Of a DNA stretch of 43,538 bases, positions 1 through 21,374 are shown piece after piece. The position numbers and the translations under genes are program-made. This stretch comes from Candidatus Edwardsbacteria bacterium (GTDB taxonomy: Bacteria > Edwardsbacteria > AC1 > EtOH8). Location: NCBI GenBank assembly GCA_018821925.1, contig JAHJLF010000051.1, positions 1-43,538 of the forward strand, in the 5' to 3' direction. The notes under the pieces are model-generated. The model ran no database searches. It worked only from the letters and a program-made list of their open reading frames with translations, and was not told where the DNA came from. The number at the start of each line of letters is the position of its first letter. Position 1 is the stretch's first letter.

Positions 1-588
1 CTGTGCGCCACCGGCTTGGTGAAAGCCACCGCCCTGAAAGGTCCGCTGTCGCTGGACGTTCAGGAGCAGGTGATGGATCCGGTAAAAGCGGGCCTGGAGC
101 TGATCAAGAAAGACCAACTGGAGAAGGCCATTGAGGCATTCTCCGACATCCTGCAGAAGGATCCTGATTCGCCGCTGGCCCATCTCTATCTGGCCGAGGC
201 CTATTTCAAGACCGAATCCTTCGACGAGGCCATCATGGAATACAAGCTGGCCAGTCAGGGGCGGGACGACAATCCGGAGATCAATTACTGCCTGGGATTT
301 GCCTATGCCAAGATCGGGCGGCTGGAGCTGGCGGTGGAGAGATGGGAGAGGTTTCTGTCATTTTCGCATGAGGATAAAAGGGCCGGGAAGATCCGGGAGC
401 TGGTGGACCTGGCGGTGAAATGGGCCGAGGGCCTGGAGGAGAAAGCCGCTATCGCCGACGGACGGCAGACCATGGCCGGCTTCGATAAACCGGCGGAGCC
501 CGCCCCGGAACTGAGCCCCGAGGTGAAAGCCTGGCTGGAGAGGATGAAAAAACTGAAGGAAAGAAGGTTGCCGATAGCCGGGGAATAG
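1..588 (+). CDS. TPR-repeat protein (5' end probably outside window)
   Basis: The reading frame is open from base 1 with the same GC-rich third positions as the rest of the gene, so the true start is probably upstream. Internal candidates are TTG at 16, GTG at 19 and ATG at 73; the last has an AGGAG 6 nt upstream (62-66) and would give a 171-residue protein. The visible part holds about three tetratricopeptide repeats (AGLELIKKDQLEKAIEAF, AHLYLAEAYF, INYCLGFAYAKIGRLELA), then a linker and a charged tail ending in KERRLPIAGE. TPRs are protein-binding scaffolds. With TPR-roadblock, MglA and Che genes downstream, this one probably serves the same polarity/chemosensory apparatus. No enzyme motif is visible. 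Confidence 0.8.
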   Translation: MCATGLVKATALKGPLSLDVQEQVMDPVKAGLELIKKDQLEKAIEAFSDILQKDPDSPLAHLYLAEAYFKTESFDEAIMEYKLASQGRDDNPEINYCLGFAYAKIGRLELAVERWERFLSFSHEDKRAGKIRELVDLAVKWAEGLEEKAAIADGRQTMAGFDKPAEPAPELSPEVKAWLERMKKLKERRLPIAGE

Positions 589-1610: not shown

Positions 1611-2612
1611 ATGTCATCAGATATGTCTTCGGACAGCGTTAAAAATTTCTCGGATCAGGTGGTCGACGATCCCTCGTCGCTGCTGTTCGGCTCCCTGGCC
1701 GATTTCTATCGCGAGAACGGCCTGTATCAGGAGGCCATCAACATCTGCCTGACCGGACTGGAATCGCATCCCGATAATATCGAGGGCCGGTTGGTGCTGG
1801 CCCAGTGCTACAAGGGGATAAACGATACCGAGAAGGCCCGGACCGAGCTGACCAAGATCCTTTCGGTCCGGCCGGAGAATTCCCTGGCCAAAAAGGTTCT
1901 GGCAGAGCTGGACAAACCCGGCGAATCCGAACCCCCGGAGACCGCGGTTACCCGGACGGAGGAAGCCCCGATCCCACCCGAAAAGATCGAGATAGAAATT
2001 CCCGTGATAGAGGAGCCGAGGGCTCCGGAAAACATTTCGGAAGCGGCCAACCCTGCGGAGCCGGCCCTGGCCGATCCGGCCGATTTTCACAAGGGAGCCC
2101 AGGCTATGATGGCCCTGGCCGCCGAGGCGACCGAAAAACCCAAGATGGAATTCGTGCCGCCGGAACCTGCTGTCGAGATCGGTCCTGAAGAGACTTCGGT
2201 TGAGGCGGCTCCGGATAAAACTGCTAAGCCGCCGGCTGAGGCCGATCCCAAAACCATGAACGCTTACGGGCGGATCCTCAACGAGATAATCCAGACCCCC
2301 CAGGTCTTTGCCAGCCTGCTGGTGGACGAGTCCGGCTATCCGGTGGCCAGCGCCTTCGCTCCGCAGTCCGCCGGGGTCGACGAGGAATCCTCAGGGGCCC
2401 TGTCATCGCTGGTGTTCTCCACCGCCACACAGGTCATGCAGAAGGTAAAACTGGGCGAGCTGGAACGGGTGGTGATAGACACCAGGAACGAAAAGATATT
2501 CCTCAACCGGGTGGGCGGACAGGTGCTGATGGTGACCGCCGAGAGCTCGGCCAAGACCGGCTTGGTGGCGGTGAATGTCAAGCGGGCCATCGAGCGGATA
2601 AAGAATTTATAA
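1611..2612 (+). CDS. TPR - roadblock/LC7 fusion protein
   Basis: 333 residues. Residues about 20-100 contain two to three TPRs (LFGSLADFYRENGLYQEA; GRLVLAQCYKGINDTEKA). A long Pro/Glu/Ala-rich linker (about 105-215) is probably disordered. Residues about 216-333 are a roadblock/LC7 domain (ILNEIIQTPQVFASLLVDES, GLVAVNVKRAIERI). Roadblock proteins act as GTPase-activating or effector partners of small Ras-like GTPases, as MglB does for MglA. An MglA homologue lies 1.7 kb downstream, so this is a candidate regulator or scaffold for it. Start ATG at 1611; a second in-frame ATG lies at 1623 and neither has a strong ribosome-binding site. Composition returns to GC-rich after the AT-rich XRE/GIY-YIG pair. 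Confidence 0.86.
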   Translation: MSSDMSSDSVKNFSDQVVDDPSSLLFGSLADFYRENGLYQEAINICLTGLESHPDNIEGRLVLAQCYKGINDTEKARTELTKILSVRPENSLAKKVLAELDKPGESEPPETAVTRTEEAPIPPEKIEIEIPVIEEPRAPENISEAANPAEPALADPADFHKGAQAMMALAAEATEKPKMEFVPPEPAVEIGPEETSVEAAPDKTAKPPAEADPKTMNAYGRILNEIIQTPQVFASLLVDESGYPVASAFAPQSAGVDEESSGALSSLVFSTATQVMQKVKLGELERVVIDTRNEKIFLNRVGGQVLMVTAESSAKTGLVAVNVKRAIERIKNL

Positions 2613-3250: not shown

Positions 3251-3592
3251 ATGAAAAACATACTCAACCAGATAAACGATATCCCCGGGGTCAGGGGCAG
3301 CCTGGTGATAGACAAGGAGGGGCTGGTGATAGCCTCCAACATCATGTCCGGCCTGGAGGAGCGGACCATCAGCGCCATGGTGGCCTCCATCTTCAACCAG
3401 GTGGTCAAATCGCTGGCCCAGGGCAAGGAAGAGCAGATCTACGGGGTGCAGCTCCTGGCCAGCGAGGGCAATATCATCTTCCTGTGCGCCCAGCACTGCA
3501 TCCTGATCGTGATCACCGAGGCCGGGGCCAATATCGGCCTGGTGTCCATAAAAATGAAAGCCAGCCTGGAACACTTGATGGATATGCTATGA
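3251..3592 (+). CDS. Roadblock/LC7 protein (MglB-like)
   Basis: A 113-residue single-domain roadblock/LC7 protein: ILNQINDIPGVRGSLVIDKEGL is the first helix and strand, ERTISAMVASIFNQ the central helix, NIIFLCAQHCILIVIT the paired strands, and IKMKASLEHLMDML the final helix. Roadblock proteins dimerise and bind Ras-like GTPases; MglB of Myxococcus, which has this fold, is the GAP of MglA. The stop codon overlaps the start of the next roadblock gene (ATGA at 3589-3592), so the two are probably co-translated and may heterodimerise. The start ATG at 3251 has no clear ribosome-binding site. Domain identity is clear; the GAP role is inferred from the MglA homologue nearby. Confidence 0.88.
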   Translation: MKNILNQINDIPGVRGSLVIDKEGLVIASNIMSGLEERTISAMVASIFNQVVKSLAQGKEEQIYGVQLLASEGNIIFLCAQHCILIVITEAGANIGLVSIKMKASLEHLMDML

Positions 3593-4140
3593 CCAACATT
3601 CAGTACGTCCTGTCGGAGGAGATCAACCAAGCGGTGGAGGTCTCCATGGGCCGCTACATCAAGGACAGCCGGGCCAGCTGCGCCCTGTTGCTGTCCAAGA
3701 GCGGCCATCTGATAAGCCTGGCCGGGTTCACCTCCAATTTTAACGTCCAGTCCATCGCCGCCCTGATCGGCGGGATCTTCACCTCCACCCAGGCCCTGGC
3801 CAAAATAGTGGCCGAGGAAAAGTTCAAGGTAATGTTCCAGGAGGGCAAGACCTGGAACGTGTATTTCTGCCTGATAGCCGACCAGTTCATCCTGGCCACC
3901 ATATTCGATAAATCCACCGTGGTGGGCATGATCCGGCACGCCGCCGGCGAGGCCGAGCGGGAGCTGTCCCCGGTGCTGGCCAGGGCCGTCGTGTCCGATA
4001 CCGACCAGGCGGCCAGGGATCTTTCGGAAAATATGGGGAGGGAGCCTTCAGCCGCCCCGGGCGAGCCCGGTTCCCAGGAGGAGGCTCTGCCAGATTTCAA
4101 CCAGGCGGTGGAGGATGCCCTATCCAAGCTGTTCTCATAG
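3589..4140 (+). CDS. Second roadblock-like protein with acidic tail
   Basis: The start is set at ATG 3589, which overlaps the upstream stop (ATGA); an upstream extension to 3484 exists only as frame overlap inside the previous gene. The protein has 183 residues. Residues about 1-118 fit a divergent roadblock fold (INQAVEVSMGRYIK, CALLLSKSGHLISLAGF, WNVYFCLIADQFILATIF). About 65 polar residues follow, ending in a short helix (FNQAVEDALSKLFS). The pairing with the preceding roadblock protein resembles MglB-type pairs beside MglA-type GTPases. The tail helix could be a docking peptide. The roadblock assignment rests on pattern and context and is less secure than for the previous gene. Confidence 0.78.
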   Translation: MTNIQYVLSEEINQAVEVSMGRYIKDSRASCALLLSKSGHLISLAGFTSNFNVQSIAALIGGIFTSTQALAKIVAEEKFKVMFQEGKTWNVYFCLIADQFILATIFDKSTVVGMIRHAAGEAERELSPVLARAVVSDTDQAARDLSENMGREPSAAPGEPGSQEEALPDFNQAVEDALSKLFS

Positions 4141-4294: not shown

Positions 4295-4888
4295 ATGTCG
4301 TTAATAAACTATTCATCAAAAGAGATCACCTGTAAGATCGTCTATTACGGTCCGGGGCGCTGCGGTAAGACCACCAACCTGCAGTACATCTACAGCAAGA
4401 TCCCGGACGTCAAGCGCAGTTCCATGGTCAGCCTGGCCACCGAGAAGGACCGGACATTGTTCTTCGACTTTCTGCCGCTGGAGCTGGGGGACATCGCCGG
4501 GTACAAGACCAGGGTCCAGCTGTACACCGTTCCCGGTCAGGTGTTCTACAATTCCACCCGGAAGCTGGTGCTGCAGGGGGCCGACGGGATAGTGTTCGTG
4601 GCCGACTCCCAGGTGGACCTGTGGCAGGAGAACATGGAAAGCCTGGCCAACCTGCGGGACAACCTGGGCATACTGGGAATGGACATCAATAAAGTGCCCA
4701 TGGTCATGCAGTACAATAAAAGGGATATGCCCAACATAGTTCCGGTGCCCGAAATGGACCACGCCCTGAACTTAAGGAAGGTTCCCCATTACGAAGCGGT
4801 GGCCACCACCGGCGCCGGGGTGTTTGACACCCTCAAGGCCGTCTCCGCCCTGGTGCTGCAGTCGCTCAGCGCCAAATACCGAAGATAA
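4295..4888 (+). CDS. mglA: MglA-type Ras-like GTPase
   Basis: 197 residues, the usual size of MglA. The G1 P-loop GPGRCGKTT is at 19-27. The G3 motif reads TVPGQ with Thr at 78, the MglA hallmark where most Ras-like proteins have Asp. The G4 motif NKRD is at 141-144. VADSQ and ENMESLANLR also match the family. In Myxococcus MglA sets cell polarity and reversal for gliding and type IV pilus motility, is inactivated by the roadblock GAP MglB and is controlled by the Frz chemosensory system. Here roadblock genes lie immediately upstream and Che genes downstream. The start ATG lacks a clear ribosome-binding site. Confidence 0.95.
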   Translation: MSLINYSSKEITCKIVYYGPGRCGKTTNLQYIYSKIPDVKRSSMVSLATEKDRTLFFDFLPLELGDIAGYKTRVQLYTVPGQVFYNSTRKLVLQGADGIVFVADSQVDLWQENMESLANLRDNLGILGMDINKVPMVMQYNKRDMPNIVPVPEMDHALNLRKVPHYEAVATTGAGVFDTLKAVSALVLQSLSAKYRR

Positions 4889-4901: not shown

Positions 4902-6269
4902 ATGACCGAAGGGACGCCCCACATATTAAAGAGCGTTTATCAGTTCGATAATTTCATTACCGGACCCAGCAACCGGCTGGCCTTTGCCGCCGCCCGCAAA
5001 GTGGCCGAGGATCCCGGCAACGTATATAATCCTCTGCTGATCTACGGCGGGGTGGGGCTGGGCAAGACCCATCTGATGCAGGCCATCGGCAATGCGGTGG
5101 CCCTGGCTCAACCAGACTGGAACCTGGTTTTCCTTAACGGCAGCCAAATGTCGCTGGAGGACCTGGTCGCTGCCGAGAAATCGGACCTGTTGCTTTTTGA
5201 CGATCTTCATCTGGGGCTGGCGGACAGGAAGATGCAGATCCGCCTGCTTCCCCTGTTCGACCGGATGGTGGGCTCCGGCCGCCAGATAATCGCCACCACC
5301 GATATCACGCCCCAGAAGATAGAGAGCATTGATGAGAAACTTCTCTCCCGCCTGCTGGGCGGGCTGATCATCGGGCTGAAAGAAGTGGACGTCAACGAGA
5401 AGAGCCTGATCATCTCCCGCAAGAGTCGCGACCGGGGCGCAGTTCTGTCGGACGAGATCGCCCTGATCATAGCTTCCCGGGTTCCCTCCAACATCAGGGA
5501 GCTGGAGGGGGCCCTCAACAAGGTGCTGTTGTATGCCTCGTTGTCCGAAGGGCCGCTGACCAAGGCGGTGGTGGACGAGGCCCTGCCTCCACTGCAATCC
5601 CCTCCGGCCCAGGCGGAACCCGATTCCTTGGTTCTGCCCCAGCCGCCTGCCGGTGATAACCCGGTCGGCGAGTTCGGCGATTTCATATCCGGACTGGATC
5701 ACAAGGTCACCGCCCTGATCGACGAGCAGCAGGGCGCCGACCAGCTGCGCCAGGGATACAAGGAGAGGCTGTTCATCTGGAAAATGAAGGGTTTCAATAC
5801 CTTCAATATCGAGAAGATATTGGAGCAGGACATATCCATCGTTACCGAAGCTTACCAAGAGTATACCAGCAACATCGAGAAGCTGATCAATCTGCAGCAG
5901 GAATTCGGTCCGCTGTCGGCAAAAGCCACCCCGGAGCAGATGGAGAAGATCGAAAACCTGATGTTCGATCCCGACAAGGCCGACGATCTGGAGATGGCGA
6001 TAAGATCGCTGTCCCAGAAATTAAGCTCCCCAACGACTGCTCCGGAGGCTGCTCCATCCGCTAAAAAACCGGAGCCGCGCCCCGAAGCCGTCCTGCCCCA
6101 GCCTCTGCCGGCTTTGCCGGCCGGGGAGAAGCCGGCCCTTACCAAGGTCGCCTCTCTCAGCCAGGAGGATGAAGGCGAGAAGGGAAAGGCGGAGCCGGTC
6201 CCGGCCCATCTGGGGATCATTGAAGAGACCTGGCCGTTCCTGGTGGAGCGGCTGATGGAAGATATTTAG
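4902..6269 (+). CDS. DnaA-like AAA+ ATPase without the DnaA DNA-binding domain
   Basis: 455 residues, with AAGGA 8 nt upstream of ATG. Residues about 10-228 match DnaA domain III: Walker A GGVGLGKTH (49-57), Walker B LLLFDDLH (96-103), sensor I ATTD (131-134), an arginine-finger region LSRLLGG (148-154) and the sensor II signature RELEGAL (199-205). DnaA domain IV, the duplex-DNA-binding HTH with a DHTT signature, is absent. Instead there is a Pro-rich linker, a helical region at about 255-375 (IWKMKGFNTFNIEKILEQD) and a charged Pro/Ala tail. It lies 13 nt after mglA and before a PATAN gene, so it probably does not initiate replication. A protein-assembly or positioning ATPase role is inference. 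Confidence 0.85.
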   Translation: MTEGTPHILKSVYQFDNFITGPSNRLAFAAARKVAEDPGNVYNPLLIYGGVGLGKTHLMQAIGNAVALAQPDWNLVFLNGSQMSLEDLVAAEKSDLLLFDDLHLGLADRKMQIRLLPLFDRMVGSGRQIIATTDITPQKIESIDEKLLSRLLGGLIIGLKEVDVNEKSLIISRKSRDRGAVLSDEIALIIASRVPSNIRELEGALNKVLLYASLSEGPLTKAVVDEALPPLQSPPAQAEPDSLVLPQPPAGDNPVGEFGDFISGLDHKVTALIDEQQGADQLRQGYKERLFIWKMKGFNTFNIEKILEQDISIVTEAYQEYTSNIEKLINLQQEFGPLSAKATPEQMEKIENLMFDPDKADDLEMAIRSLSQKLSSPTTAPEAAPSAKKPEPRPEAVLPQPLPALPAGEKPALTKVASLSQEDEGEKGKAEPVPAHLGIIEETWPFLVERLMEDI

Positions 6270-6307: not shown

Positions 6308-7927
6308 ATGGCGATAAAAGGATCATTCAAAGAAGTAAGCCTGCCCGACGTCCTGCAGCTACTGGCGGTGGGGCGCAAGACCGGCTGCCTGAAAGTCACC
6401 GACGGCAGCAATTTTGGCAGCGTCTTTTTCAATGAGGGCAAGATCTGTTTTGCCAACCTGCTGAACCGGCCGGACCGTCTGGGCGACAGGCTTTTTTCCC
6501 GGGGCCTGATAACCTCCCGGAACCTGCAAGATGCTTTGGATCTGCAGCAGCAGGAGGGCGGAACCCGGCGGCTGGGCGGTATTCTGCTGGAGATGGGCCT
6601 GATCAAACAGCCGGACATCGAGGCCGACATCTCGGGCCAGATCGAGGACACCATCTTCTACCTGCTGCGGTGGATTGACGGGGAGTTTTTCTTCGAGCCG
6701 GATTCCCTGCCCGAGGGGGAGACTATCCTGGTCTCCCTGGACGCCATAAACCTGCTGCTGGAGGAGGCTAGGCGGGTCGACGAATGGCGGACCCTGGAGA
6801 AGAAACTGCCCACCCCCCAGACCGTGCTGGAGCGGGTGATGATGGACCTGGCCAAACAGGAGGAGCTGAATCTCAACAGCGAGGAGAAGCAGGTACTGTC
6901 GTTGATCGACGGATACCGCTCGCTGGCCGAGATCATGGAAACATCGGCCCTGGGCGAGTTCCTGACCTCCAAGATAGTCTACGGGCTTCTGCTGGCCGGT
7001 CTGGCCAAGCGGGGATCCGAGAAAAGCAAGCAGGCCGCCTCCTGGAATCTTAATATCATCGACGACCACGGCAACCTGGGAATGGCCTTCTACCGTACCC
7101 AGATGTACGACGAGGCCACCAGGGAATACCGCCGGATCATCGAGATCAGGCCGGACCATTACGAGGCCCGGTTCTACCTGGGGCTGATCCATTTCCGGAA
7201 AGCGGAGTACGCCGAAGCGGCCACCGAATTCCTGGAGGCCATAGCGGTGGAGCCTAAAAAAGCTGCGGCCTATAACAACCTGGGTTTGAGCCTGGAAATG
7301 ATGGGTGAGCGGGAGGATGCCGCCAGGCAGTACCGCAAGGCCGTCGAGCTTTCGCCCGAGAAGGCGATGCCCCGGATCAACCTGGCCTGCCTGTTCTGCG
7401 GGGACGATGAAAACGATTCCGCCCAGGAACAGCTGAACCGGATCGATCCGGCAACCGACAAGCCCCTGTTGGCAACTTTCCTGGCGGGGTTGATAGCCCT
7501 GAGGAACCACGACCCCGAACAGGCGTACAAGCTGTGGAGTTCCATAGAAAACAGCAATAAACCCAATCACGTCCTGCAGAACAATCTGGGCGCCCTGATG
7601 CAGGCCAAGGGGCAGGACGAGGAGGCCGAGAGGTACTACAACGCGGCGCTTAAGGCCCGGTCCGATGACCGGAAGATACTGCGCAATCTGCTGGAGCTGT
7701 ATTATAAGAACGGCATGATAGCGCAATCCATCGAAACGCTCAGCCGGATGGCCGAGCTTGACATGTTGGATCCCCAGGATATGGCCCGGCTGGGAAACCT
7801 TTATCTTAAACAGGGCCAGAAGGACCTGGCGGGGAAATGGTGGAGGAAGACCCTGGAGGCGGATCCCGATAACCAGATGGTAAAGCGAAACCTGGCCCTG
7901 ATGGATAAGAATGCTTTCGCCAAGTAA
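6308..7927 (+). CDS. PATAN (DUF4388) - TPR protein
   Basis: 539 residues. The N-terminus is a PATAN/DUF4388 domain (FKEVSLPDVLQLLAVGRKTG, then VFFNEGKICFANLL), running to about residue 160 with an inserted helical segment. A second region at about 175-240 (LSLIDGYRSLAEIMETSALG) resembles the winged-helix-like extension common in PATAN proteins. From about 250 to 535 there are at least seven TPRs (NLGMAFYRTQMYDEATREYR, YNNLGLSLEMMGEREDAARQ). PATAN proteins, such as cyanobacterial PatA-type regulators, occur in motility and phototaxis signalling. The last 17 nt overlap the cheR start, so the two are translationally linked. It is probably a cytoplasmic scaffold of this system. Confidence 0.88.
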   Translation: MAIKGSFKEVSLPDVLQLLAVGRKTGCLKVTDGSNFGSVFFNEGKICFANLLNRPDRLGDRLFSRGLITSRNLQDALDLQQQEGGTRRLGGILLEMGLIKQPDIEADISGQIEDTIFYLLRWIDGEFFFEPDSLPEGETILVSLDAINLLLEEARRVDEWRTLEKKLPTPQTVLERVMMDLAKQEELNLNSEEKQVLSLIDGYRSLAEIMETSALGEFLTSKIVYGLLLAGLAKRGSEKSKQAASWNLNIIDDHGNLGMAFYRTQMYDEATREYRRIIEIRPDHYEARFYLGLIHFRKAEYAEAATEFLEAIAVEPKKAAAYNNLGLSLEMMGEREDAARQYRKAVELSPEKAMPRINLACLFCGDDENDSAQEQLNRIDPATDKPLLATFLAGLIALRNHDPEQAYKLWSSIENSNKPNHVLQNNLGALMQAKGQDEEAERYYNAALKARSDDRKILRNLLELYYKNGMIAQSIETLSRMAELDMLDPQDMARLGNLYLKQGQKDLAGKWWRKTLEADPDNQMVKRNLALMDKNAFAK

Positions 7928-8732
7928 TATAACCGATCCGGAGCTGCTGGCTCTGGCCAATAAAATACTGGCCGACAGCGGGTTCGATATCCGGCAGTAC
8001 AAGGAACGGCCTCTCAAAAGAAGGCTGGCGGTCAGGATGAGGTCCTGCCAGGTGAGCAGCTATGAGGAATATCAGCAGAAACTGAAGGATGATCCCGGCG
8101 AATACACCAAACTGCTGGATACCCTGACCATCAACGTAACCAAATTCTATCGCAATGCCGAGACCTATCTGACGGTCTTTGACAGGGTCCTGCCGATAAT
8201 CCTGGAGGAGAGCAAAAATTGCCCGGTCCAGATATGGAGCGCGGGATGTTCCTCCGGCGAGGAGCCCTATTCGCTGGCCATCATGTGGCGCGAATTCTCC
8301 CAGGCCCGGGGGCTGGTAAAGGATTGTAACATCTACGCCACGGACATCGACCTCCAGATACTGGGAAAGGCTAAGGCCGGGATCTATCCCCGATCCAGCA
8401 TGGATGAGATCCCCCAGAATCTGATCGGAAAATATTTCGAGGCCCGGGACGACAAGTATCATATCTCCTCCCAGATAAAGGATATGGTGCAGTTTGAAAA
8501 ACTGGATCTATTCTCCCGGTATCCCTACAGCGAGTTGGACCTGATATTCTGCCGCAACGTGCTGATATATTTTTCCCGGCAGACCCAGGAGGATATCTTC
8601 TATAAGTTCGCCAAGGCCCTCCGGGCCGACGGTTTTCTGGTGCTGGGCAAGGTGGAGAACATGTTCGGGCAGATGAAGGACACCTTCGTCTCGTTCGATA
8701 TCAAGGAAAGAATATACCGGGCCGTAAAATAA
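7911..8732 (+). CDS. cheR: CheR chemoreceptor methyltransferase
   Basis: 273 residues, the standard size. It has the CheR N-terminal helical domain (LADSGFDIRQYKERPLKRRL), then NVTKFYRN (75-82), the SAM-binding loop AGCSSGEEPYS (111-121), IYATDID and DLIFCRNVLIYF. It transfers methyl groups from SAM to receptor glutamates, which sets receptor sensitivity, and should act on the two receptor proteins encoded at 17600-21374. The start at 7911 lies inside the end of the PATAN-TPR gene. CheB and CheD are encoded further along the same strand, so the adaptation set is complete although interrupted by two secreted-protein genes. Confidence 0.95.
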   Translation: MLSPSNITDPELLALANKILADSGFDIRQYKERPLKRRLAVRMRSCQVSSYEEYQQKLKDDPGEYTKLLDTLTINVTKFYRNAETYLTVFDRVLPIILEESKNCPVQIWSAGCSSGEEPYSLAIMWREFSQARGLVKDCNIYATDIDLQILGKAKAGIYPRSSMDEIPQNLIGKYFEARDDKYHISSQIKDMVQFEKLDLFSRYPYSELDLIFCRNVLIYFSRQTQEDIFYKFAKALRADGFLVLGKVENMFGQMKDTFVSFDIKERIYRAVK

Positions 8733-8973: not shown

Positions 8974-9468
8974 TTGTCCGACCAGCTGATAGTAAAAATC
9001 GCCGATTACAAGGTAGCCAAGAGCCCGGCGATAATAACCACTCACGGCCTGGGCTCCTGCCTGGCCATCACCATCTACGATCCCCAGATGAAGATAGGCG
9101 GCCTGGCCCATGTGATGCTTCCCGATCCCGATCTGGCCCGCAACCAGAGCAATCCGGCCAAGTTCGTTACCACCGCCCTCAAGGAGCTGATCCTGGCCCT
9201 GGAGGGGATGGGCTGCTCAAGGATACGAATGGTCAGCAAGCTGGTGGGCGGGGCCAATATGTTCTCCAAACTGCTCAACTCGGGGAAGACCAGCTACAGC
9301 AACATCGGGCAGAGGAATACCCTGCAGGCCAAGCAGGAGCTGAACAATTACGGGATCCCCATCGTGGCCGAGGACACCGGGGCCGACTACGGCCGGTCGG
9401 TGGAGTTTCTGACCTCATCGGGCACGGTGGTGGTGCATTCCTTCCGGGCCGGGCTAAAGGAGCTGTAA
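8974..9468 (+). CDS. cheD: CheD chemoreceptor glutamine deamidase
   Basis: 164 residues. The start is TTG at 8974, supported by AAAGGGGTGA just upstream and by alignment of the first residues with the family. Catalytic residues are visible: Cys29 in GLGSC, His46 in AHVMLP and Thr23, with the 17-residue Cys-His spacing typical of CheD. KLVGGANMF is the family's GGA motif. CheD deamidates receptor glutamines to glutamates, creating methylation sites for CheR. No CheC phosphatase, its usual partner, is encoded here. The gene opens a run (8974-16125) in which two secreted-protein genes separate it from cheB. Confidence 0.94.
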   Translation: MSDQLIVKIADYKVAKSPAIITTHGLGSCLAITIYDPQMKIGGLAHVMLPDPDLARNQSNPAKFVTTALKELILALEGMGCSRIRMVSKLVGGANMFSKLLNSGKTSYSNIGQRNTLQAKQELNNYGIPIVAEDTGADYGRSVEFLTSSGTVVVHSFRAGLKEL

Positions 9469-9471
9469 AAA

Positions 9472-11067
9472 ATGAGAAGAGTAATATTTCTCATAAATCT
9501 GGTAACACTGACCTATGGCCTAAGCCCCGCCCAAACCACCTATAACCTTGAGATCATCTTCCAGCGGGGCACGCCGGACACCAGCGTATCATCTTGGGGC
9601 GCGGCCATAGCCGGACTGGGCGATGTTAACGGGGATGGCTATGATGACGCAGGCATTGTTGGTTACAGCAGCACATTGGGGGCAAGGGTGTATTTATTCG
9701 GCGGGAGTCCGGCATTTGATACTATCCCTGAATGGATAACCGGCGATGCGACGGCCGGACCCGGCACCGGTTTGGCTTTATGCGGCGGGGATATAAACGG
9801 CGACGGATGCAGCGACGTGATACTTGAGGCAGCCGGAAAAGTATATGTTTATTATGGAAAGGTAGGCTGGCCAAACACTGCTTACGATCTGCGCTTTTTA
9901 GGGCGGCTCTACGAAGGCGCTACCAGTCTTGCCACCGGCGACCTTAACGGGGACGACACCACCGACCTTATTGTAGGTGATTTTTGGAATATGTCAGGCA
10001 ACGGTCATGTAAACATATACCTTGGCTCTGCGGTTTTTGATACCATACCGTGGTTAGTGATAAGGGGGAAGGATTTGGAACAATTTGGATCAAGCTTGGA
10101 CGCAGGTGGCGATGTCAATGGCGACGGCATACAAGATCTATTAGTAGGCGCTGCAACAAACAATGTAGACAGCCGGGGGCGGATATATCTGTTTCATGGC
10201 GGCCCGGCAATGGATACCATCCCCGATTGGTGGAAAGATGGCGAAGGCTCACAGCAATATTGGGGGGAATTCGCCGGCAGTATAGCAAATGACACTAATG
10301 GGAATGGACGATTATGGTTTGGCAGCTACTACTATCCCGGTGGTTATTTATCAACGCTCCATAATGGGAAAGGGATACTTTTCTACGGAGGGTTGGGCAT
10401 GGATACAATAGCCGATATGACGGTTGTGGGTGCGGATACATTTAGCGGGCTGGGCAGCATGTTCGCTTCAAGTAAAATAGATTCTGGGTTGAGGAGCGAT
10501 TTAATTTGTGGCTCAAGCGAAATAGGGTGGGGAAAAGGATTGGCTTGGACAAGCAAGTTGATTCAGGATACAGTTGTCAGCGGATGGATGAAAGGCAGGT
10601 GGTACGGTGATAAACTTGGGGTAAAAGTTGTCAACGCCGGAGACGTGAACAATGACGGCAGGGAAGAAGTAATGTTTGGCAGCAATGCCGATACAAATAG
10701 GCTGGTGGTTATATGTAAATACACGGGGCCGGAGGGGGTTACCGGCGAGCCGGAATTCAAAATTCAGAATTCAGAATTCAAAATTTATCAGAACGCACCC
10801 AATCCATTCAGCCATCAAACGACTATCAAATATCAAATTGCAAAATCGGGTCAGGTAAATCTTTCGGTTTATAATATTACAGGGCAATTGGTGAAAACAC
10901 TTATCAACGACAACTCTGTCCCTCTCCGCATCGGGGAGGGTAGGGAGGGGTCAATAACCTGGAACGGCAGGGATAACAACAACAATGCGGTTTCCAATGG
11001 AGTATATATCTACAGACTTCGCATAAACGACAAGAGTAAGATAAAGAAGATGACTTTGATCAGGTAA
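9472..11067 (+). CDS. Secreted FG-GAP repeat protein with T9SS-type sorting domain
   Basis: 531 residues. The N-terminus is a signal peptide (MRRVIFLINLVTLTYG, cleavage near SPAQ). At least five FG-GAP/integrin-type blade motifs with Ca-binding-like loops follow (GDVNGDGYDD, GDINGDGCSD, GDLNGDDTTD, GDVNGDGIQD, GDVNNDGREE), suggesting a beta-propeller. Residues about 440-531 form a Por/T9SS-type C-terminal sorting domain (NAPNPF, VYNITGQLV, WNGRD, GVYIYRLR). It is probably exported and anchored on, or released from, the cell surface. It starts 4 nt after cheD. Two short repeat-like DNA segments (10753-10786 and 10918-10952) are translated in frame near and within the sorting domain. Confidence 0.87.
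   Translation: MRRVIFLINLVTLTYGLSPAQTTYNLEIIFQRGTPDTSVSSWGAAIAGLGDVNGDGYDDAGIVGYSSTLGARVYLFGGSPAFDTIPEWITGDATAGPGTGLALCGGDINGDGCSDVILEAAGKVYVYYGKVGWPNTAYDLRFLGRLYEGATSLATGDLNGDDTTDLIVGDFWNMSGNGHVNIYLGSAVFDTIPWLVIRGKDLEQFGSSLDAGGDVNGDGIQDLLVGAATNNVDSRGRIYLFHGGPAMDTIPDWWKDGEGSQQYWGEFAGSIANDTNGNGRLWFGSYYYPGGYLSTLHNGKGILFYGGLGMDTIADMTVVGADTFSGLGSMFASSKIDSGLRSDLICGSSEIGWGKGLAWTSKLIQDTVVSGWMKGRWYGDKLGVKVVNAGDVNNDGREEVMFGSNADTNRLVVICKYTGPEGVTGEPEFKIQNSEFKIYQNAPNPFSHQTTIKYQIAKSGQVNLSVYNITGQLVKTLINDNSVPLRIGEGREGSITWNGRDNNNNAVSNGVYIYRLRINDKSKIKKMTLIR
10753..10786 (+). repeat. In-frame GAATTC/AAAATTC short repeat tract
   Basis: GAATTCAAAATTCAGAATTC followed by a near-repeat, translated as EFKIQNSEFKI just before the sorting domain. 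The simple alternating structure differs from the surrounding coding DNA and sits at a domain linker, where an insertion would be tolerated. Confidence 0.6.
10918..10952 (+). repeat. In-frame CCCTCTCC...GGGGAGGG repeat-like insertion
   Basis: An imperfect inverted repeat, CCCTCTCC (10920-10927) and GGGGAGGG (10933-10940), followed by TAGGGAGGGGTC. It is translated as VPLRIGEGREGS inside the sorting domain, exactly where the paralogue at 14930-14960 has a short PGIYSAS loop. It therefore lengthens a surface loop without breaking the frame. Confidence 0.55.
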
Positions 11068-11107
11068 AATGGCTGTAAATCAAATAAATAAAGAAAGGAC
11101 CCAAACA

Positions 11108-14100
11108 ATGAAAAAGCTGACAATAATATTGGGGTTGTTATTTCTTGTAGGCACAGCATTAGCCGAGCCCATCTGGGTGAAGGATGGAACCAATTTCGGG
11201 GGCACATTCCGGGATGTCCATATGCTTGACGACAGCACCGGCTGGGCGGTGGGCGATGCGGGCAAGGTATACCAAAGAAGCGGCAAACTGTATCCCACCT
11301 CTACCGAGCAGGTATGGTTTACAAAGACTATACCAGCGTTGGATCCACAGGTAAATTGGGACTTTAAGGGGGTGTGCTTTGCCAATGCCGATAACGGCTG
11401 GATAGTGGGGTATAAGAATGGAGACCCGGGGAAATACAAGGGTGTTATTTTAAGAACTACAGATGGTGGCGGTAGCTGGTCAAAAACCACATCCGACTCA
11501 ATACAAGGTTTGCGATATACCCCCAATGCCCTGACGCCGTTTTTGAAGGTGAAGGTTAATCTGTATGGAAGTGATTATCTTGGGTACATCAGTTGCGGTA
11601 ATGGGTATATTCTTAAATGGAATCCAATAACAGAACAATGGGCGCCCACGCGTCCTTCAACAGGCACCTCCGATTCGCTTACCATATGGTATAACAGCCT
11701 GTGGATGAACGAATCGGACCCTAATTCACTCTGGGTTGCCGGCGACCAGAGCTGTTCGTTCTTACAGTCCGGCGACGGGGGCGCAAGTTGGTCTGATCGT
11801 AATTCCGGGGTTTTCAGCCAAAGCTACGACTGGCCGCCTAGCACCAACACTCCGCTGGGGACTACGGTGGCAAACCTGTCAATGGCCGGTAGCGGTGGCG
11901 GCATCTATACCGGCATGGGTGGTGGCCTGGCCGGTTATTATAGCGGGGTGTGGAGTTTATTGCCGCCTTTGGGCGAAGACAACTGGAACTATGGCATGAC
12001 AGTAGGGCCCAGCAATGAAATTTTCACCTGCGGCAATACATACCGTAACGTAGGCGCTTTGCGTAAAATACAAAACGATACTGTTATATTTGAAAAGGTT
12101 TCTGCATCACTCACCTCTCTTTCACTGAAGTCTTTGGATTTTCCGCCAAATTCTGATCATGGTCGCGCAGTGGGGGCAAACCAAATTTTACACAGATACG
12201 AACCCGCGATAGTAACGGGTATAAATTCCTACAGAACTGGCACTAATGGCGATACCATTTGTGTGACTTGGACAACCACAAAAGAAAACAACATCAGTAA
12301 ATGGGAGGTATGTACATCAGGATTAATTGCACAAGATATAGGTAGGCCTACAAGTGTTGATCTTGAGTCACACCCTGCTGGTTATACATACACTTTGGGC
12401 TTCCATAGTTGGCATGTTCTAGTTGATTCTTTGGTGCGTGTATTTTATATTACTGTACGAGCCACCTGCAAAGACGGGACTGTTTTAAATTTTGGTCCGA
12501 TACTTGCGACAGAGAGATTCGGTTCCACAAGTCTTGAACCAGTTGTGATTGATAATGTTGTGGATGTATCAATTGTGACACGACCACAATTAAAAATAAA
12601 ATGGTATCCAGCGACAACAGAAGCTTCTATTCTGCGCTCTTTGACGCCTGATGGACCCTGGGTGCCTTGTGGACGCGCTGTGGGTATTGCTTGTACAACA
12701 TATGTAGATACAACAGTGCCATTATTTGATAAGCCCATTTTTTATATTGTGCAAAGAAATAGTAGTGATGGCAATACTTCCTGCCCAAGCAATGTTATGT
12801 CCGGTATAGCCAAAGACAATCTTGCTCCTGACACACTTGCCGCGCCAACCGGGGGTTTCAACATAGGCGACAGCATATTTACCCTTAATTGGAATAAATC
12901 CATCGCTGCCGATTTCGGCGGCTACTGGGTATGTCCGGAACCGGTGGGCGTGTTTGGTGCAAAGCTCAGCGGCATAGACCCCGGCAGTTACGAGCCGGAT
13001 GCCTACTATGTTTCCCACTCCTCGCCCATAGAACGCAACCAGTGGAAATGGCGGGTGCCGGATAATTTGGTTGGTGAGCAACTTATATTCTCGGTAACTG
13101 CAATGGATCGTTCGGGCAACATTGCCCCCTGGAGCGGCCAGGTGACCATCAATACCAAAGCTCTTACCAATTCAAATACCGCACTATCAACCGCATATAA
13201 TAACGGCAAGCACCTGCTTTACGACAGTAAGGGTTATTTGAATTTGGTTTACTCCTCCGGCGATTCGGTTATATATCAGCAAAGCTGGGACGACGGCCTG
13301 ACCTGGACGCCTTCTTCGGGCTTTGCCTCGGGTGGTACTAAGCCGGTGCCGGTTGTCGGTTATTACGGAACAGACACCACCATGACCTGGAAGGCCGAAA
13401 CACCAGGTGCAGGATGGGTTCTTAAATCCGCCAAGAGAGTGAACAACGGCTGGGGACCGGAAGCGACCATTTTGGAGGCTATCGGAGCCTGGGAACAGAC
13501 GCATTATGTCAGCCCGCCATCAATGGCAATCAACATCGCCGGAACGCACCTGGCCATAGAGCGGGTGGATGCGCAATATGCCATCGGCGGCCAGAGCGGG
13601 GTATGGTACTGGAAGCTTTTGTATGGATTCAAGGCTGCCGGCCAGACAGACTATGCCTGGACAGTTTTGGACAGCACTTCAGGCAGCTGGGGCGGGCAGG
13701 ATCCAAATCTGGCCAGCCCGACCATCTGCCTGGATTCCAAGGGCGGGGTTCATATCGCCTGGGATTACGAGGGAGAGATTTATTGGCGGGGATATGACCC
13801 GTATCTTGGCGCATGGAAGAACAAGATTAACCTGACCAACAGCCCGGAGGTGTTTTCCGCCGAGCCTTCTCTGTCTTTCTACGGAGACGTGCATATAGTC
13901 TGGCAGGAAGGCAACGATATTCAACACCGCAAAGGCAACTGGGGTTATCCCAGGTTGGAAAATACCATTGATGCAATCACTAAAAGTTTCTACTGGCAGG
14001 GTGTCGAGAATGTCAACAACAGCCCGGCCACCGCTTCGTTGAATCCGGTATTCGATGGCAATTATGTGGCCTGGAGCGAGCAGAGTGCTGTTAATCCCGA

Positions 14101-15078: not shown

Positions 15079-16125
15079 ATGACTGACATCCGCACCATAA
15101 AAGTTCTGGTGGTTGACGACTCCGCCCTGATGCGCAACATGGTGGGCGATATTGTCAAGGCTACGCCGGGGCTTAAGCTGGTGGGTTCCGCCAAGAACGG
15201 GCTGGAGGCCATCGAGCAGGTCCGCCAATTGTCCCCCGATGTGGTTACCATGGACATCGAGATGCCCAAGATGGACGGCCTGCAGGCGCTGGCCCGGCTG
15301 ATGACCGAATCCCCGGTGGCCACGGTGATGCTCTCGGCCCATGCCAAGGAGGGAGCCGAGTCCACCCTGCTGGCTCTGGAGTTGGGAGCGGTGGACTTCG
15401 TGACCAAACCGTCCGGCTCCATCTCCTTAGACATAGACAAGGTCCGGGAGGAGCTGGTGGAGAAGATCAGGATGGCCGCCGGGGTTGACCTGGCCAAGCT
15501 GAGGCCCGGCAACAGCCATCGCCTGGCTCCGGCGGCGCTCGAGAGCAAAGCTCCAACCGGAATCATGAGAACCCTGGCCATCGGCTCGTCCACCGGCGGC
15601 ACCCGGGCCCTGGCCGAGATACTGCCCAAGCTGCCCCGGGAGATAAACGCCGCCCTATTGCTGGTGCAGCACATGCCGGTGGGCTTTACCAAATCCCTGG
15701 CCGAGCGGCTGGACAACCGCAGCAAGATCAGGGTAAGGGAGGCCCAGGAGGGCGATCGGCTGGAAAGGGGGCTGGCGCTACTGGCCCCGGCCGGGTATCA
15801 CATGGAGCTGTCCTCCTCCGGGGACCGGATAAAATTAAATCAGAACCCTCCCAAGTTCGGGGTCCGTCCATCGGTGGATGTGATGATGGAGTCGGTGGCG
15901 CTTTATTCACCGGCGGAAACGGTGGGCGTGATACTGACCGGGATGGGTCACGACGGGGCCAACGGGGTGGCCGGAATGAAGAAGAAGGGCGGGCACATTA
16001 TAGCGGAGGACCGCTCCACCTGCGTGGTCTATGGCATGCCCAAGGCGGCGGTGGAGACCGGAGCGGTGGACGAGGTGCTGCCGCTGGACCAGATCCCGGG
16101 GGCCATCGTCAGGGCCTGCCGCTAA
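15079..16125 (+). CDS. cheB: CheB protein-glutamate methylesterase
   Basis: 348 residues. The receiver domain (about 7-125) has the acidic pair Asp13-Asp14, phosphoacceptor Asp59 in MDIEMP and Lys110. The C-terminal methylesterase domain has the triad Ser171 (SSTGG), His198 (QHMP) and Asp292 (GMGHDG). It removes methyl groups added by CheR and may deamidate receptor glutamines. Phosphorylation normally comes from CheA, which is not encoded in the window. ATG start 8 nt after the secreted BNR-type gene. Confidence 0.96.
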   Translation: MTDIRTIKVLVVDDSALMRNMVGDIVKATPGLKLVGSAKNGLEAIEQVRQLSPDVVTMDIEMPKMDGLQALARLMTESPVATVMLSAHAKEGAESTLLALELGAVDFVTKPSGSISLDIDKVREELVEKIRMAAGVDLAKLRPGNSHRLAPAALESKAPTGIMRTLAIGSSTGGTRALAEILPKLPREINAALLLVQHMPVGFTKSLAERLDNRSKIRVREAQEGDRLERGLALLAPAGYHMELSSSGDRIKLNQNPPKFGVRPSVDVMMESVALYSPAETVGVILTGMGHDGANGVAGMKKKGGHIIAEDRSTCVVYGMPKAAVETGAVDEVLPLDQIPGAIVRACR

Positions 16126-17031: not shown

Positions 17032-17541
17032 ATGGACCAGAACGGCAAATGGCTGTTATGCCGGCTGGGTAATGTCTGGTATGGCCTGGACCTGTCCCTG
17101 GTGCAGGAGATAGTCTATAACCCGGCGCTGACCAGTCTGCCGGCCCTGGGCAGATCGGTGGCCGGGATCATGGACTGGATGGGCCGCCAGATAACAGTGG
17201 TGGATATTGCCGTCGCCGGCAGGGAAGGGCGGCCAGCCCCCGATATAGCCCAAGGGCAAATGCCGGTGGTCGTTTTGAAGGCCGGGCTTGCGCCAGCCGA
17301 CCTGTCCGCCCCCGTTCACATCAACGGGGCAGGCTCCGCAACAGCGAAGGCAGGCGGGGATGCGCTCATCGGGCTGCTGGTCGATGAGGTCGGGGAGATC
17401 ATTTCCCGGCAGGCGGGCGATAAAATTGAGATCGATGCCGTGCTGGCGGTAACCCTTAAATCCGTCAACCAGGCATTTGAATATAATGATGAAATCATTT
17501 TTACCCTGAATTGCCAGGAATTATACCGGGCCATTGCCTAA
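17032..17541 (+). CDS. CheW-like coupling protein
   Basis: 169 residues. It has CheW-fold features: WLLCRLGNVWYGLDLSLVQEIVYNPALTSLP, the AGIMDWMGRQITVVDIA segment equivalent to GL.NLRG.i.pviDl, and LIGLLVDEVGEIIS near the end. An inserted Ala/Pro-rich loop lies at about residues 63-105. CheW couples chemoreceptors to the kinase CheA. The canonical NLRG turn reads MDWMG, so it is a divergent member. It abuts the TPR gene (TAA then ATG) and precedes two receptor genes. With no CheA in view, it may instead couple receptors to another output. Confidence 0.85.
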   Translation: MDQNGKWLLCRLGNVWYGLDLSLVQEIVYNPALTSLPALGRSVAGIMDWMGRQITVVDIAVAGREGRPAPDIAQGQMPVVVLKAGLAPADLSAPVHINGAGSATAKAGGDALIGLLVDEVGEIISRQAGDKIEIDAVLAVTLKSVNQAFEYNDEIIFTLNCQELYRAIA

Positions 17542-17599: not shown

Positions 17600-19624
17600 G
17601 TGCTGAGCAGAATAAATTTACGCAATCTGTTCGCCTGGACGGTGGCGGCGGCCGGAGCGGCCATCCTGATCGTTCAACTGGGCGAACTGAATATTCAATG
17701 GTGGGTAATGCTGCTGCTGATGCTGACCGTGACCGTCTGCCAGTGGTTCACCGTGGCCCTGCCCGGCGGGGTATTCGTCTCCCTGGATCTGGTGGTGGTC
17801 TATTTTACCTTTCTGGTATTCGGCCCGGTCCCGGCGATCCTAGCCATATACCTGCCCTCTTTCTTTCACCAGATAAAAAGGAAGAAGCCCTGGCCGAGGG
17901 TGTTCTTCATTCCCGGCCAGTTCGTATTCGCAGTCCTGGCCATGTCCTGGGTATTTACCGCCATGGGAGGGCAGAGCGGGGCCGACATTTTAAGCTGGGC
18001 CAACCTGCCTAAATTGCTGGCCGCCCTGCTGATCTATGTCTTGGTGAACGATCTCCTGGTCAGTTCCTATCACCTTATCGAGGGCACTTTCACCGCCCGG
18101 GATGTTTTCGGCCTAACCTGGTCGGACCTGAAACTCAATCTGGTATTGGCCCCCATCTCCATTATCGGGGTCTATCTGTTCTCCAAACTGGGCATCATCG
18201 GGCTGCTGACTATGGTGGTGCCGGCCGGCATCATCGGTTGGGCCCTGGTCACATTGTTCAAGGCCATGCAGAAGGACCGGGAGGTGAGCCTGGAATCCAA
18301 GATCACCAGCGGCTTCGTGATCGTCCTGTTCTCGGCCCTGACCCTGTCCATGGGAGCGATCCTGGTGATCATTCTGCAGGTGATGACCAAACAGGCGGCC
18401 CAGCTTAACCTGGACGCCATGGTAATAACCCAACTGTTCCAGAGGCTGCTGAGCAATGTGGTGCTGGTCCTGCTGGTGACGTTCATCGTGGCGCTGCTGC
18501 TGGTCCGCTATATCATCCGGAGGATGGTGGTCAAGCCGGTCGGCATGATCAGCCGGATGATCGGTGACATGGCCAGCGGTTCGGCCGACCTGACCTCCAA
18601 GATAGAACAGCATTCCAATGACGATATCGGGATACTGACCAAGCACTTCAACACTTTTGTGGAGAAGCTGGAGAACTTGGTCAAGACCATTATCAATACC
18701 GCCAATGGTGTGGCCACCACCTCCGAGGAGTTGGCGGCCTCCACCCAGGAGATGAACGCCTCCCAACAGGAGATATCGGCCACCGTCCAGAGGATATCGC
18801 AGGGCATCGGGACCCAGGTGGCATCGGTCCGGGTCACCAAGGAGGCCATCGACGAAATCTCCTCATCGGTGGAGCAGGTCAGCAACAACGCCCAGGACTC
18901 GGCCCAATCGGCCAGCCAGGCGGTGGAGGTGGCCTCCCAGGGGGGAGCCACCATGATGAGCATAGTCGAGCAGATGGGCAAGATAGACCAGACCATGTCC
19001 CATCTGACCAATGTGGTCAGCGACCTGGAGAAGCGCACCGGGGAGATCGGCCGGATCACCGAATTGATATCATCGGTGGCTAGGCGCACCAACCTGCTGG
19101 CCCTCAACGCGGCCATCGAGGCCGCCCGGGCCGGGGACGCCGGCAAAGGGTTTGCAGTGGTGGCCGGGGAGGTCAAAAAACTGGCCGAGAGGACGGCTGG
19201 CGCCACCAAGGAGATCGAGGATCTGATCAAAGAAATCCAGGGCGAGACCGAACAGACGGTGCTGGCCATGAACCAGGTTGACGAGCAGGTGGCCGAGGGC
19301 AAGGATTTTGCCGCCAAGGGCAACCAGGCCTTCTCCCAGATCATCCAGGCGGTAAAGCTATCGGCCGACCGTGCCTCCCAGATATCCCAGGCCACCGGCA
19401 GCCAGGTGGAGGGGGTTAAGAAAATAGCCAAGGCTATTGAACAGGTGGCGGTGGTGGCCGAGGAAGCGGCCTCGGGCATGGAGCAGACCGCTGCCGCCCA
19501 GCAGGAACAGATGGCTTCCATGCAGGAGATGACCGCCTCGGCCCAGGAGCTGGCCCATCTGGCCGAGGAGCTCAAACGCCAGGTGGACAGCTTCCAGATA
19601 AAGGGGGCGGAAAATGAAAGTTAA
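17600..19624 (+). CDS. Methyl-accepting chemotaxis protein with multi-pass membrane N-terminus
   Basis: 674 residues, GTG start with GGAGATAG upstream. About eight transmembrane segments occupy residues 8-310 ([36 protein letters not shown]), with no large periplasmic domain; the longest loop is about 30 residues. A HAMP domain follows ([18 protein letters not shown]), then a cytoplasmic coiled coil whose hairpin tip reads [21 protein letters not shown]. Gln/Glu pairs suited to CheR/CheB/CheD lie in both helices. No C-terminal NWETF-type tether is present. Sensing probably happens within the membrane or through partners. The last 11 nt overlap the next receptor gene. Confidence 0.93.
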
Positions 19625-21374
19625 CAAATTCAATTTGATCCTGGTCATCCCGGACGTGATCGCCATTTTCCTGGGGGTTCCCTTATTGCTGATATTCGTG
19701 GGCCATTCAGTGGGCCTGCCGCCGGCCGCTCTTAAATTCCTGATCTTCTTCGGCCCGGTCTGGGCCCTGCTGCTGGCCGTGGAATTGCAGATCATCAACC
19801 GGAAAAGGCTGCAGCCGGTGATGGGATATTTTAACCAGAGCCCATCCGAAAAAAATGATAGCGACCAAGCCTTCAACATCGCCCTGAATTTTCCGCTGGT
19901 CACCTCGCTGCACATGCTGGGGCATTTCACCGTCGGGGTCCCGGCCTGCGCATTGCTGATGATATTCATGGGCACCGGGGTCACCCTGACCCATACCCTG
20001 CAGATAATCCTGCCGGGATTTTTGACCGGCATAGTGGTCGGCTCGCTGATATTCCTCCTTGAGGAGGCTCTGCTGTCCCCCTATATCGCCAAGCTGGCGG
20101 CCGGCTCAACCGATACCGAAAAAATATACCGTAATTCCTACCGCCTCAGCATTCTTTGGAGGCTGATAATCCTGTTTACCGTGATAATGATCCTGGCCTT
20201 CGCTTTCGGGGTACTCATCGCCAAATACCCCGGCATCTGGTATGTGGCCATCCTGGGAATAGCGGCCACCTTGGCCATAGCCTATCTTACCGCCAAAGGG
20301 ATAAACCGCACCGTGGTCCTGCTGACTGCCACTCTGCAAAATATTTCGGAGGGCAAGGGCGGCCTGTCCCGGAAACTTCCGGTGCTGGGCAACAACGAAT
20401 TGGGGGACCTCTGCCAGGCTTATAACAGTTTTGTTGGGCAGATCCGCCTGATGGTCAGGGAGATAACCAACGTGGCCTCCGGCCTGGCGGCCAGCTCCCA
20501 GCAATTGGCGGCCTCCTCCCAGGAGATGAGCGCCTCCAGCCAGGAGATCTCCTCCACCGTTCAGCAGATATCCCGGGGCAGCACCGTCCAGTCGGAGAGG
20601 CTGACCCAGATGGCCAAGGAGGTGGAGAAGCTTTCCACCTCCATCAAGTTGATAGAATCCCAGGGCCGGATGACTATGATCTCCTCCCAGAAGGCCATCG
20701 ACGCCTCGCAGTCCGGAGCCGAGAAGACCTTCGAGGCTGTTTCCAAGATGGCCGAGATATACCAGTCGGCTGCCCTGACCAACCAGAAGGTGCAGGACCT
20801 GCAGAAGAAATCGGCCGAGATCGGGGTGGTGGTCAGCCTGATCTCCAACCTTTCCCAGCAGACGGATTTTCTGGCCCTTAATGCGGCCATCGAGGCGGCC
20901 CGGGCCGGAGAGGCCGGCAAGGGCTTTTCGGTGGTGGCCGACGAGATCCGGGTGCTGGCGGTGGAGGCCGGAAACTCGGCCCTTAAGGTGGCCACCCTGA
21001 TCGGCGAAGTGGAGAAGGAGATAACCAAGACCGTGGAGGTCATCGATAAGAGCCGGAGCACCATCGATGCCAGCAAGGCCACGGTGGACCAGACCGAGCA
21101 ATCCCTTAAGGTGATCAACAGCACGGTGGCGGTGGCCGGGACCATGGTCAAGCAGATAGCCGAGGCCACCCGAAACCAGAGCAAGAGCGCCACCGAAGTG
21201 GTCAAACTGGCCTCGGACGTCTCCAATGTGGCCATCGATACCGCCGCCTCCACCCAGGAGGTGGCTGCTGCGGTGCAGCAGCTGACGGCCTCGATGGAGG
21301 AGCTAACCGCGGTGGCCCAGACCCTGTCGCTGTCGGCCGATAAACTGAACACCCTGGTTTCGGAGTTCGATTAG
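19614..21374 (+). CDS. Second methyl-accepting chemotaxis protein, multi-pass membrane N-terminus
   Basis: 586 residues, ATG start 11 nt inside the end of the preceding receptor gene. About six transmembrane segments span residues 8-225 ([56 protein letters not shown]). A HAMP-like segment follows ([20 protein letters not shown]) and then the signalling domain with tip [21 protein letters not shown]. No periplasmic ligand domain is visible. Its membrane part is organised differently from that of its neighbour, so the two are not a recent duplication. Overlapping genes suggest equal synthesis and perhaps mixed arrays. Confidence 0.92.

Follow-up and report, generated by a model that had tools for sequence, protein, structure and literature searches.

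What is a replication-type ATPase doing in the middle of a chemosensory gene cluster? In the window, by which we mean the whole stretch of 43,538 nucleotides of Candidatus Edwardsbacteria DNA that was analysed, the gene for a DnaA-type AAA+ protein, named DnaAL here, comes 13 nt after the end of mglA (4888) and is followed, after another 38 nt, by the start of a gene for a PATAN-TPR protein, a neighbourhood that the first-pass annotation had described correctly. That annotation saw in DnaAL a replication-type ATPase moved into protein positioning: the recruitment to the cluster is upheld by synteny and co-occurrence, whereas the positioning job is our inference. The reading that we favour, at a probability of about 0.45, is that DnaAL is an AAA+ ATPase which belongs to the DnaA clade and has no part in replication, and that it stands at the core of a chemosensory and MglA polarity module, acting by the mechanism proposed below. 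The genes concerned are as follows:

16..588 (+): upstream PATAN-TPR gene, C-terminal part, truncated by the end of the contig (in G001, a relative, it has 421 aa)
1611..2612 (+): TPR-roadblock protein
3251..3592 (+): roadblock/LC7 protein 1
3574..4140 (+): roadblock/LC7 protein 2 (Robl_LC7, E=8.5e-4, below cut-off)
4295..4888 (+): MglA-type small GTPase, by domain match and gene order
4902..6269 (+): DnaAL, DnaA-type AAA+ protein, 455 aa
6308..7927 (+): PATAN (DUF4388)-TPR protein, of all neighbours the one that accompanies DnaAL most constantly
7911..8732 (+): CheR
8974..9468 (+): CheD
15079..16125 (+): CheB
17032..17541 (+): CheW
17600..19624 (+): MCP chemoreceptor 1
19614..21374 (+): MCP chemoreceptor 2

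The GTPase encoded at 4295..4888 we take to be MglA partly from what is known of M. xanthus MglA. Several other genes are scattered through the region. An HTH gene and a gene with a GIY-YIG nuclease domain (651-1510) separate the upstream PATAN-TPR gene from that of the TPR-roadblock protein; a gene search recovered the HTH gene alone in G002 and neither gene in the remaining relatives that were read. Between CheD and CheB the Che cluster is split by two large proteins (9472-15070), predicted to be secreted, which carry sorting domains of the T9SS type, and the two MCP genes are followed by the gene for a PEGA-domain Ser/Thr protein kinase (21750-23462).

The arrangement is not peculiar to this contig. 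The order TPR-roadblock, roadblock, roadblock, MglA, DnaAL, PATAN-TPR, CheR, CheD is kept in nine other Edwardsbacteria, as far as contigs reach, and on the longer contigs CheW and CheA are present upstream, with CheY in G001 and CheC in G007. The same gene order is met in loci of Gemmatimonadota, a label given to this large group through G462, which matches Gemmatirosa kalamazoonensis plasmids at 100% identity. In that phylum mglA is present in 115/115 DnaAL-positive genomes as against 34/85 DnaAL-negative ones (Fisher p 4.6e-25, relatedness ignored), and it lies directly upstream of the DnaAL gene in at least 81 of the 115, so that the association with mglA, which the first-pass annotation had proposed to look for in other genomes, does recur. 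The PATAN-TPR gene is found directly downstream of DnaAL in all 23 Gemmatimonadota loci inspected. It still adjoins DnaAL in the Gemmatimonadota family f258 (L107, L109, L123, L124), where neither MglA nor the majority of the Che genes was found adjacent, while in the phylum of G114 and G250 the DnaAL gene is accompanied by PATAN, and in G250 by CheA/CheC too, with no MglA seen near the DnaAL gene in either genome. Because MglA is not nearby in G114 and G250 and not adjacent in f258, it may not be a direct partner of DnaAL; the likeliest direct partner would be PATAN-TPR, since it is adjacent in 23/23 loci, even in f258 without a neighbouring MglA. Synteny in two phyla, together with co-occurrence, gives strong support to the view that DnaAL is a member of an MglA/chemosensory cluster.

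To understand what this protein may do, we need its parts:

4923..5597 (+): AAA+ core and lid, residues 8-232, corresponding to DnaA domain III (TIGR00362, AF2, Foldseek)
5046..5072 (+): Walker A GGVGLGKTH, residues 49-57 (K55 invariant, 10/10)
5139..5183 (+): shortened initiator-specific motif, 20 aa against 32 in DnaA (10/10 Edwardsbacteria)
5187..5204 (+): Walker B LLLFDD, residues 96-101 (D100 and D101 invariant, 10/10)
5301..5303 (+): sensor I D134 (10/10)
5349..5351 (+): box VII arginine finger R150, E. coli R285 (10/10)
5496..5498 (+): sensor II R199 in NIRELEGAL, E. coli R334 (10/10)
5667..6029 (+): coiled-coil region, residues 256-376, motif IWKMKGFNT (alignment, AF2)
6030..6212 (+): variable Pro/Ala-rich linker, pairwise identity 0.32 (10 orthologues)
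6213..6266 (+): conserved C-terminal peptide GIIEETWPFLVERLMEDI ('WP...RLxED')

The N-terminal half is an ATPase of the DnaA type. Pfam Bac_DnaA (PF00308) matches residues 9-157 (E=4.8e-37) and the TIGR00362 DnaA profile matches residues 8-232 (E=5.7e-59) with 200 bits, below its cut-off of 343.9 bits. Walker A, Walker B, sensor I and the RELEGAL sensor II, noticed at first reading, are indeed all present and conserved in 10/10 orthologues; with the box VII arginine they make up the domain III that DnaAL shares with DnaA (TIGR00362, PF00308 plus PF08299). The sole exception to the invariance of the ATPase motifs across the 10 orthologues is one T-to-S change in Walker A. The AF2 model used, made from a 47-sequence alignment (mean 78.7), replaced one made from the 10 orthologues (mean pLDDT 53): it has a confident AAA+ core and lid, confident helices within 257-375 and a disordered linker. 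When this model was submitted to Foldseek the AAA+ part alone was placed, the best match being domain III of B. subtilis DnaA (8bv3, TMt 0.88, 2.1 A). Mean pairwise identity among the 10 orthologues is 0.71 in the AAA+ part, 0.61 in the coil and 0.62 in the last 18 residues, and 0.26 and 0.32 in the two linkers. Purifying selection is apparent in dN/dS values of 0.07-0.18 in AAA+ and 0.07-0.12 in the coil, and the latter values show the coil to be under selection as a domain; the C-terminal tail is too short to give useful dN/dS.

What sets DnaAL apart from DnaA is both what it has lost and what it has gained. The absence of domain IV, reported at the outset, is borne out by PF08299, which in the window's genome (99.4% complete) matches only a separate dnaA on contig C30, apart from one sub-threshold match on C93, and finds nothing in DnaAL. 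Domains I and II are missing as well, the AAA+ part beginning at residue 8, and Pfam searches and the Pfam and PDB searches with the coil detected no DNA-binding domain in the C-terminal part of the protein. The dnaA of contig C30 is full length and carries domain IV. Neither of the two results named beforehand as fatal to the first reading, a genome without its own dnaA or a DNA-binding domain in the C-terminal part, was obtained. The initiator-specific motif is 20 aa long in all 10 Edwardsbacteria, as compared with 32-33 aa in 34 DnaA sequences and 23 aa in E. coli Hda. At the ssDNA-contact positions of DnaA (E. coli V211, R227, K243, R245), Edwardsbacteria DnaAL has a conservative L or I for V211, a deletion of R227, and substitutions of K243 and R245. 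Unlike DnaA, then, DnaAL is devoid of domains I, II and IV and of the ssDNA residues, its initiator-specific motif is shortened, a coiled coil and a W-peptide have been added, and its gene sits in an MglA/Che cluster. We infer that DnaAL is non-replicative and no longer opens DNA.

The coiled-coil region is made of helices 257-295, 311-341, 344-353 and 357-375. A profile search with it, as first suggested, retrieved no credible relative in Pfam or PDB, and the coil recurs in other phyla. Weak coiled-coil matches, of which the best was PBC (E=3.6e-4, below the PBC cut-off), were rejected. It had been supposed that a helical region had replaced domain IV: the helical region stands, as a conserved domain, while the replacement history does not, the tandem relatives described below suggesting loss of a second AAA+ instead. 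The Pro/Ala tail proves to be a variable linker followed by the conserved C-terminal peptide, the W of which is kept in 36/36 relatives compared, tandem forms included. A role for this peptide as a CheR-docking pentapeptide was considered and dropped, as it is kept in L107, L109 and L124, where CheR was not found adjacent. The lack of domains I and II, the conserved helical domain, the conserved C-terminal peptide, an initiator-specific motif 12 residues shorter and the tandem relatives had all been missed in the first-pass annotation.

These relatives came from a profile search of 290 genomes, which recovered proteins of about 650-700 aa in other phyla. They are tandems, with the layout AAA+, coil, AAA+, and the same W peptide at the C-terminus. 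The DnaAL gene is present in 10/10 Edwardsbacteria genomes examined, and the coil domain/DnaAL gene in 115 of 200 Gemmatimonadota genomes, where the tandem is the usual form. In a sample of 386 bacterial genomes the coil was limited to Edwardsbacteria, Gemmatimonadota, the phylum of G114 and G250, the lineage of G124 and G261, which carries it in a different architecture, and one match in G016, taken as chance after inspection by eye, to an SbcC/Rad50-like coiled-coil protein. At least three phyla of bacteria contain members of the family. Within Gemmatimonadota some loci (L112, L125, L113, L121) encode a single AAA+ together with the W peptide of the tandems, and for this reason the second AAA+ has probably been lost several times, as judged from tree and architecture rather than from a reconstruction. 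The DnaAL of the window looks like such a reduced form, with the second AAA+ lost and the peptide kept.

The two domains of the tandems seem to have parted company. The first, like that of the window, is without the ssDNA residues (R245 is E in 16/22). In the second, DnaA-like ssDNA residues are kept (R245 in 20/22, K243 in 14/22), the Walker A lysine is gone in 6/22 and Walker B residues in several, and in several lineages the domain is absent altogether. Thus the second AAA+ (e.g. residues 377-613 of L069) has retained DnaA-like residues at ssDNA positions and in some members lost catalytic ones, the first being the reverse. The initiator-specific motif is 17-26 aa long, against 32, in Edwardsbacteria and, beyond that phylum, in three of the four loci with a single AAA+; its being shortened in most single-AAA+ forms suggests that in tandems it would pack against the second AAA+.

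In a tree of AAA+ domains Edwardsbacteria DnaAL, both tandem domains and MshEN-DnaA fusion proteins form one group (SH-aLRT 95), containing just one sequence counted as genuine DnaA (L139), and the Edwardsbacteria's own DnaA groups with other DnaA (support 99). This tree does not favour DnaAL as a recent duplicate of the organism's own dnaA. The comparison with genuine DnaA that had been called for thus yields a separate group, while the AU test leaves an own-dnaA duplication unrejected (p=0.34); nor does that test separate the first from the second tandem domain as kin of the Edwardsbacteria AAA+. The AU test being undecided, the kinship of DnaAL with the tandems rests on the shared coil, C-terminal peptide and synteny, and the tree, with alternatives left by the AU test, may be taken as supporting evidence only.

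If PATAN-TPR is the partner, the nature of its PATAN domain matters:

6476..6640 (+): MshEN-type double motif in the PATAN domain, PATAN-TPR residues 57-80 and 88-111, candidate c-di-GMP site

NCBIfam NF053729 scores 42.9 bits on the window protein, over a 38-bit cut-off, and is above cut-off also in L069 and L066. Two RLGxx..LxxxLxxQ motifs are present in the alignment, of the kind that defines the 24-residue double c-di-GMP motif of MshEN (PMC5013675), with a spacer of 6-7 residues (7 in the window) against 5 in V. cholerae MshE; Pfam MshEN (PF05157) reported no match on the window PATAN-TPR. Binding of c-di-GMP by this protein is plausible. The likeness to MshE/PilB lies in the double motif of 24 residues and in fusions of MshEN with DnaA-type AAA+; the difference is that the motif of the window, whose spacer has 7 residues, is part of a PATAN domain, and in a protein distinct from the ATPase. 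The fusions, L063:691-2214 (+) and L141:1399-2805 (-), join MshEN directly to the ATPase in two genomes of different families, and their AAA+ domains fall in the same tree group as window DnaAL. Another parallel is found in the PATAN-REC regulators of Synechocystis (PixE and others), whose PATAN domain likewise partners a ring ATPase, within a pathway for taxis; in the present module, by contrast, PATAN is fused to TPRs, contains the MshEN-type motif and is accompanied by a DnaA-type AAA+.

We may now propose how the module would work. Its parts would be CheW, CheY, CheA, CheC, PATAN, TPR and roadblock proteins, MglA, DnaAL, PATAN-TPR, CheR, CheD, CheB and the MCPs. DnaAL would bind and hydrolyse ATP, its arginine finger and sensor II switching assembly states, and would be docked to its partners, first of all the PATAN-TPR encoded downstream, by the coiled coil and the C-terminal W-peptide. 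PATAN-TPR may sense c-di-GMP through its MshEN-type motif, and the ATP state of DnaAL would gate or place MglA and, through it, the machinery of type IV pili at a pole. All of these steps, from the cycling of ATP by DnaAL and its contacts with partners to the input of c-di-GMP and the output to pili, are predictions; the cluster probably steers surface movement and DnaAL probably acts on type IV pili, perhaps gated by c-di-GMP. The bolder scenario, according to which an ATPase of replication initiation became an oligomer, gated by c-di-GMP and dependent on ATP, that sites MglA and type IV pili, the ancestral form having two AAA+ domains and the coil between them, is to be regarded as rather doubtful. 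The MglA/MglB/RomR module of M. xanthus shares with the present one an MglA-type GTPase and roadblock proteins tied to a chemosensory system; it differs in that no DnaA-type ATPase was found described there, whereas here MglA is fixed with PATAN and DnaAL.

Other readings of the same facts deserve consideration. The constancy of PATAN-TPR as a neighbour, even where MglA is not adjacent, could mean that DnaAL is a regulator or an assembly ATPase of type IV pilus motors of the PilB/PilT class, working via PATAN-TPR, with MglA merely a co-regulated neighbour. This is possible, if well short of an even bet: PATAN regulators of Synechocystis bind the pilus motor PilB1 (PMC7690835, PMC9090330), and the genome of the window encodes four PilB/GspE-like and several PilT-like ATPases; yet not one DnaAL without mglA was met among the 200 Gemmatimonadota genomes, and no pilus genes adjoin DnaAL in the loci read. 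It is also conceivable that DnaAL serves passively as a scaffold, with an AAA+ fold retained for oligomerisation or docking without ATP turnover, as the loss of catalytic residues from the second AAA+ of some tandems and the outright disappearance of that domain in several lineages would allow. This is unlikely for the form found in the window, where the AAA+ domain has kept all its catalytic residues in 10/10 orthologues under strong purifying selection.

A connection with the chromosome could take two forms. Like Hda/HdaA, DnaAL is a stand-alone DnaA-type AAA+ without domains I and IV, hence without a DNA-binding domain, and with a short initiator-specific motif (20 as against 23 aa), so that it might regulate DnaA and couple chemosensory or polarity signals to replication initiation. 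We hold this to be very unlikely: no Hda-type clamp-binding motif is visible by eye at the N terminus of DnaAL, which scores 86 bits against a curated Hda cut-off of 194.8; Walker B is intact, with DD where E. coli Hda has DN; and the genomic setting is one of Che, MglA and PATAN, not of replication genes. An intact Walker A, the extra coil and the C-terminal peptide are further differences from Hda. The ssDNA residues kept in the second AAA+ of tandems might, for their part, indicate that the family still acts on DNA, for example by coordinating chromosome segregation or anchoring with polarity; but the window form has neither that domain nor those residues, and no DNA-binding domain was found, which makes such a role hardly credible.

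In the open-access literature no paper was found in which DnaA occurs together with MglA and roadblock proteins, PATAN or DUF4388, and further literature searches gave no prior description of the DnaAL family. The first-pass annotation had known of no characterised example, and in the literature searched, likewise, no ATPase of the DnaA type was found that is described as taking part in cell polarity or chemosensing. If the reading proposed here is true, an AAA+ switch would work alongside the GTPase MglA in bacterial polarity modules, and its link to c-di-GMP would be open to testing. For genome annotation the family has a practical consequence. The Gemmatimonadota tandem L069:7643-9598 (-) reaches 521 bits on TIGR00362 DnaA, over the cut-off of 343.9, because the scores of its two AAA+ domains add up; annotation based on this profile would name it 'chromosomal replication initiator DnaA', and can mislead origin prediction. 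Such scores may explain why the family was overlooked. Cultured hosts, e.g. Gemmatirosa kalamazoonensis, carry a DnaAL gene.

Two further architectures were seen. In L091:7665-10010 (-) and L092:7662-9968 (+), proteins of 768-781 aa run from an N-terminal domain that by eye looks STAS-like, through the same coil and a DnaA-type AAA+, to a long acidic tail, with no MglA cluster nearby. Finally, L057, L136, L137 and L140 make up a further set of AAA+ proteins of the DnaA type on which Bac_DnaA_C gives no match, in which the N-terminal extensions vary and the C-terminal region, with ends such as LNLVLDIVLVSHKK, is common to the group.
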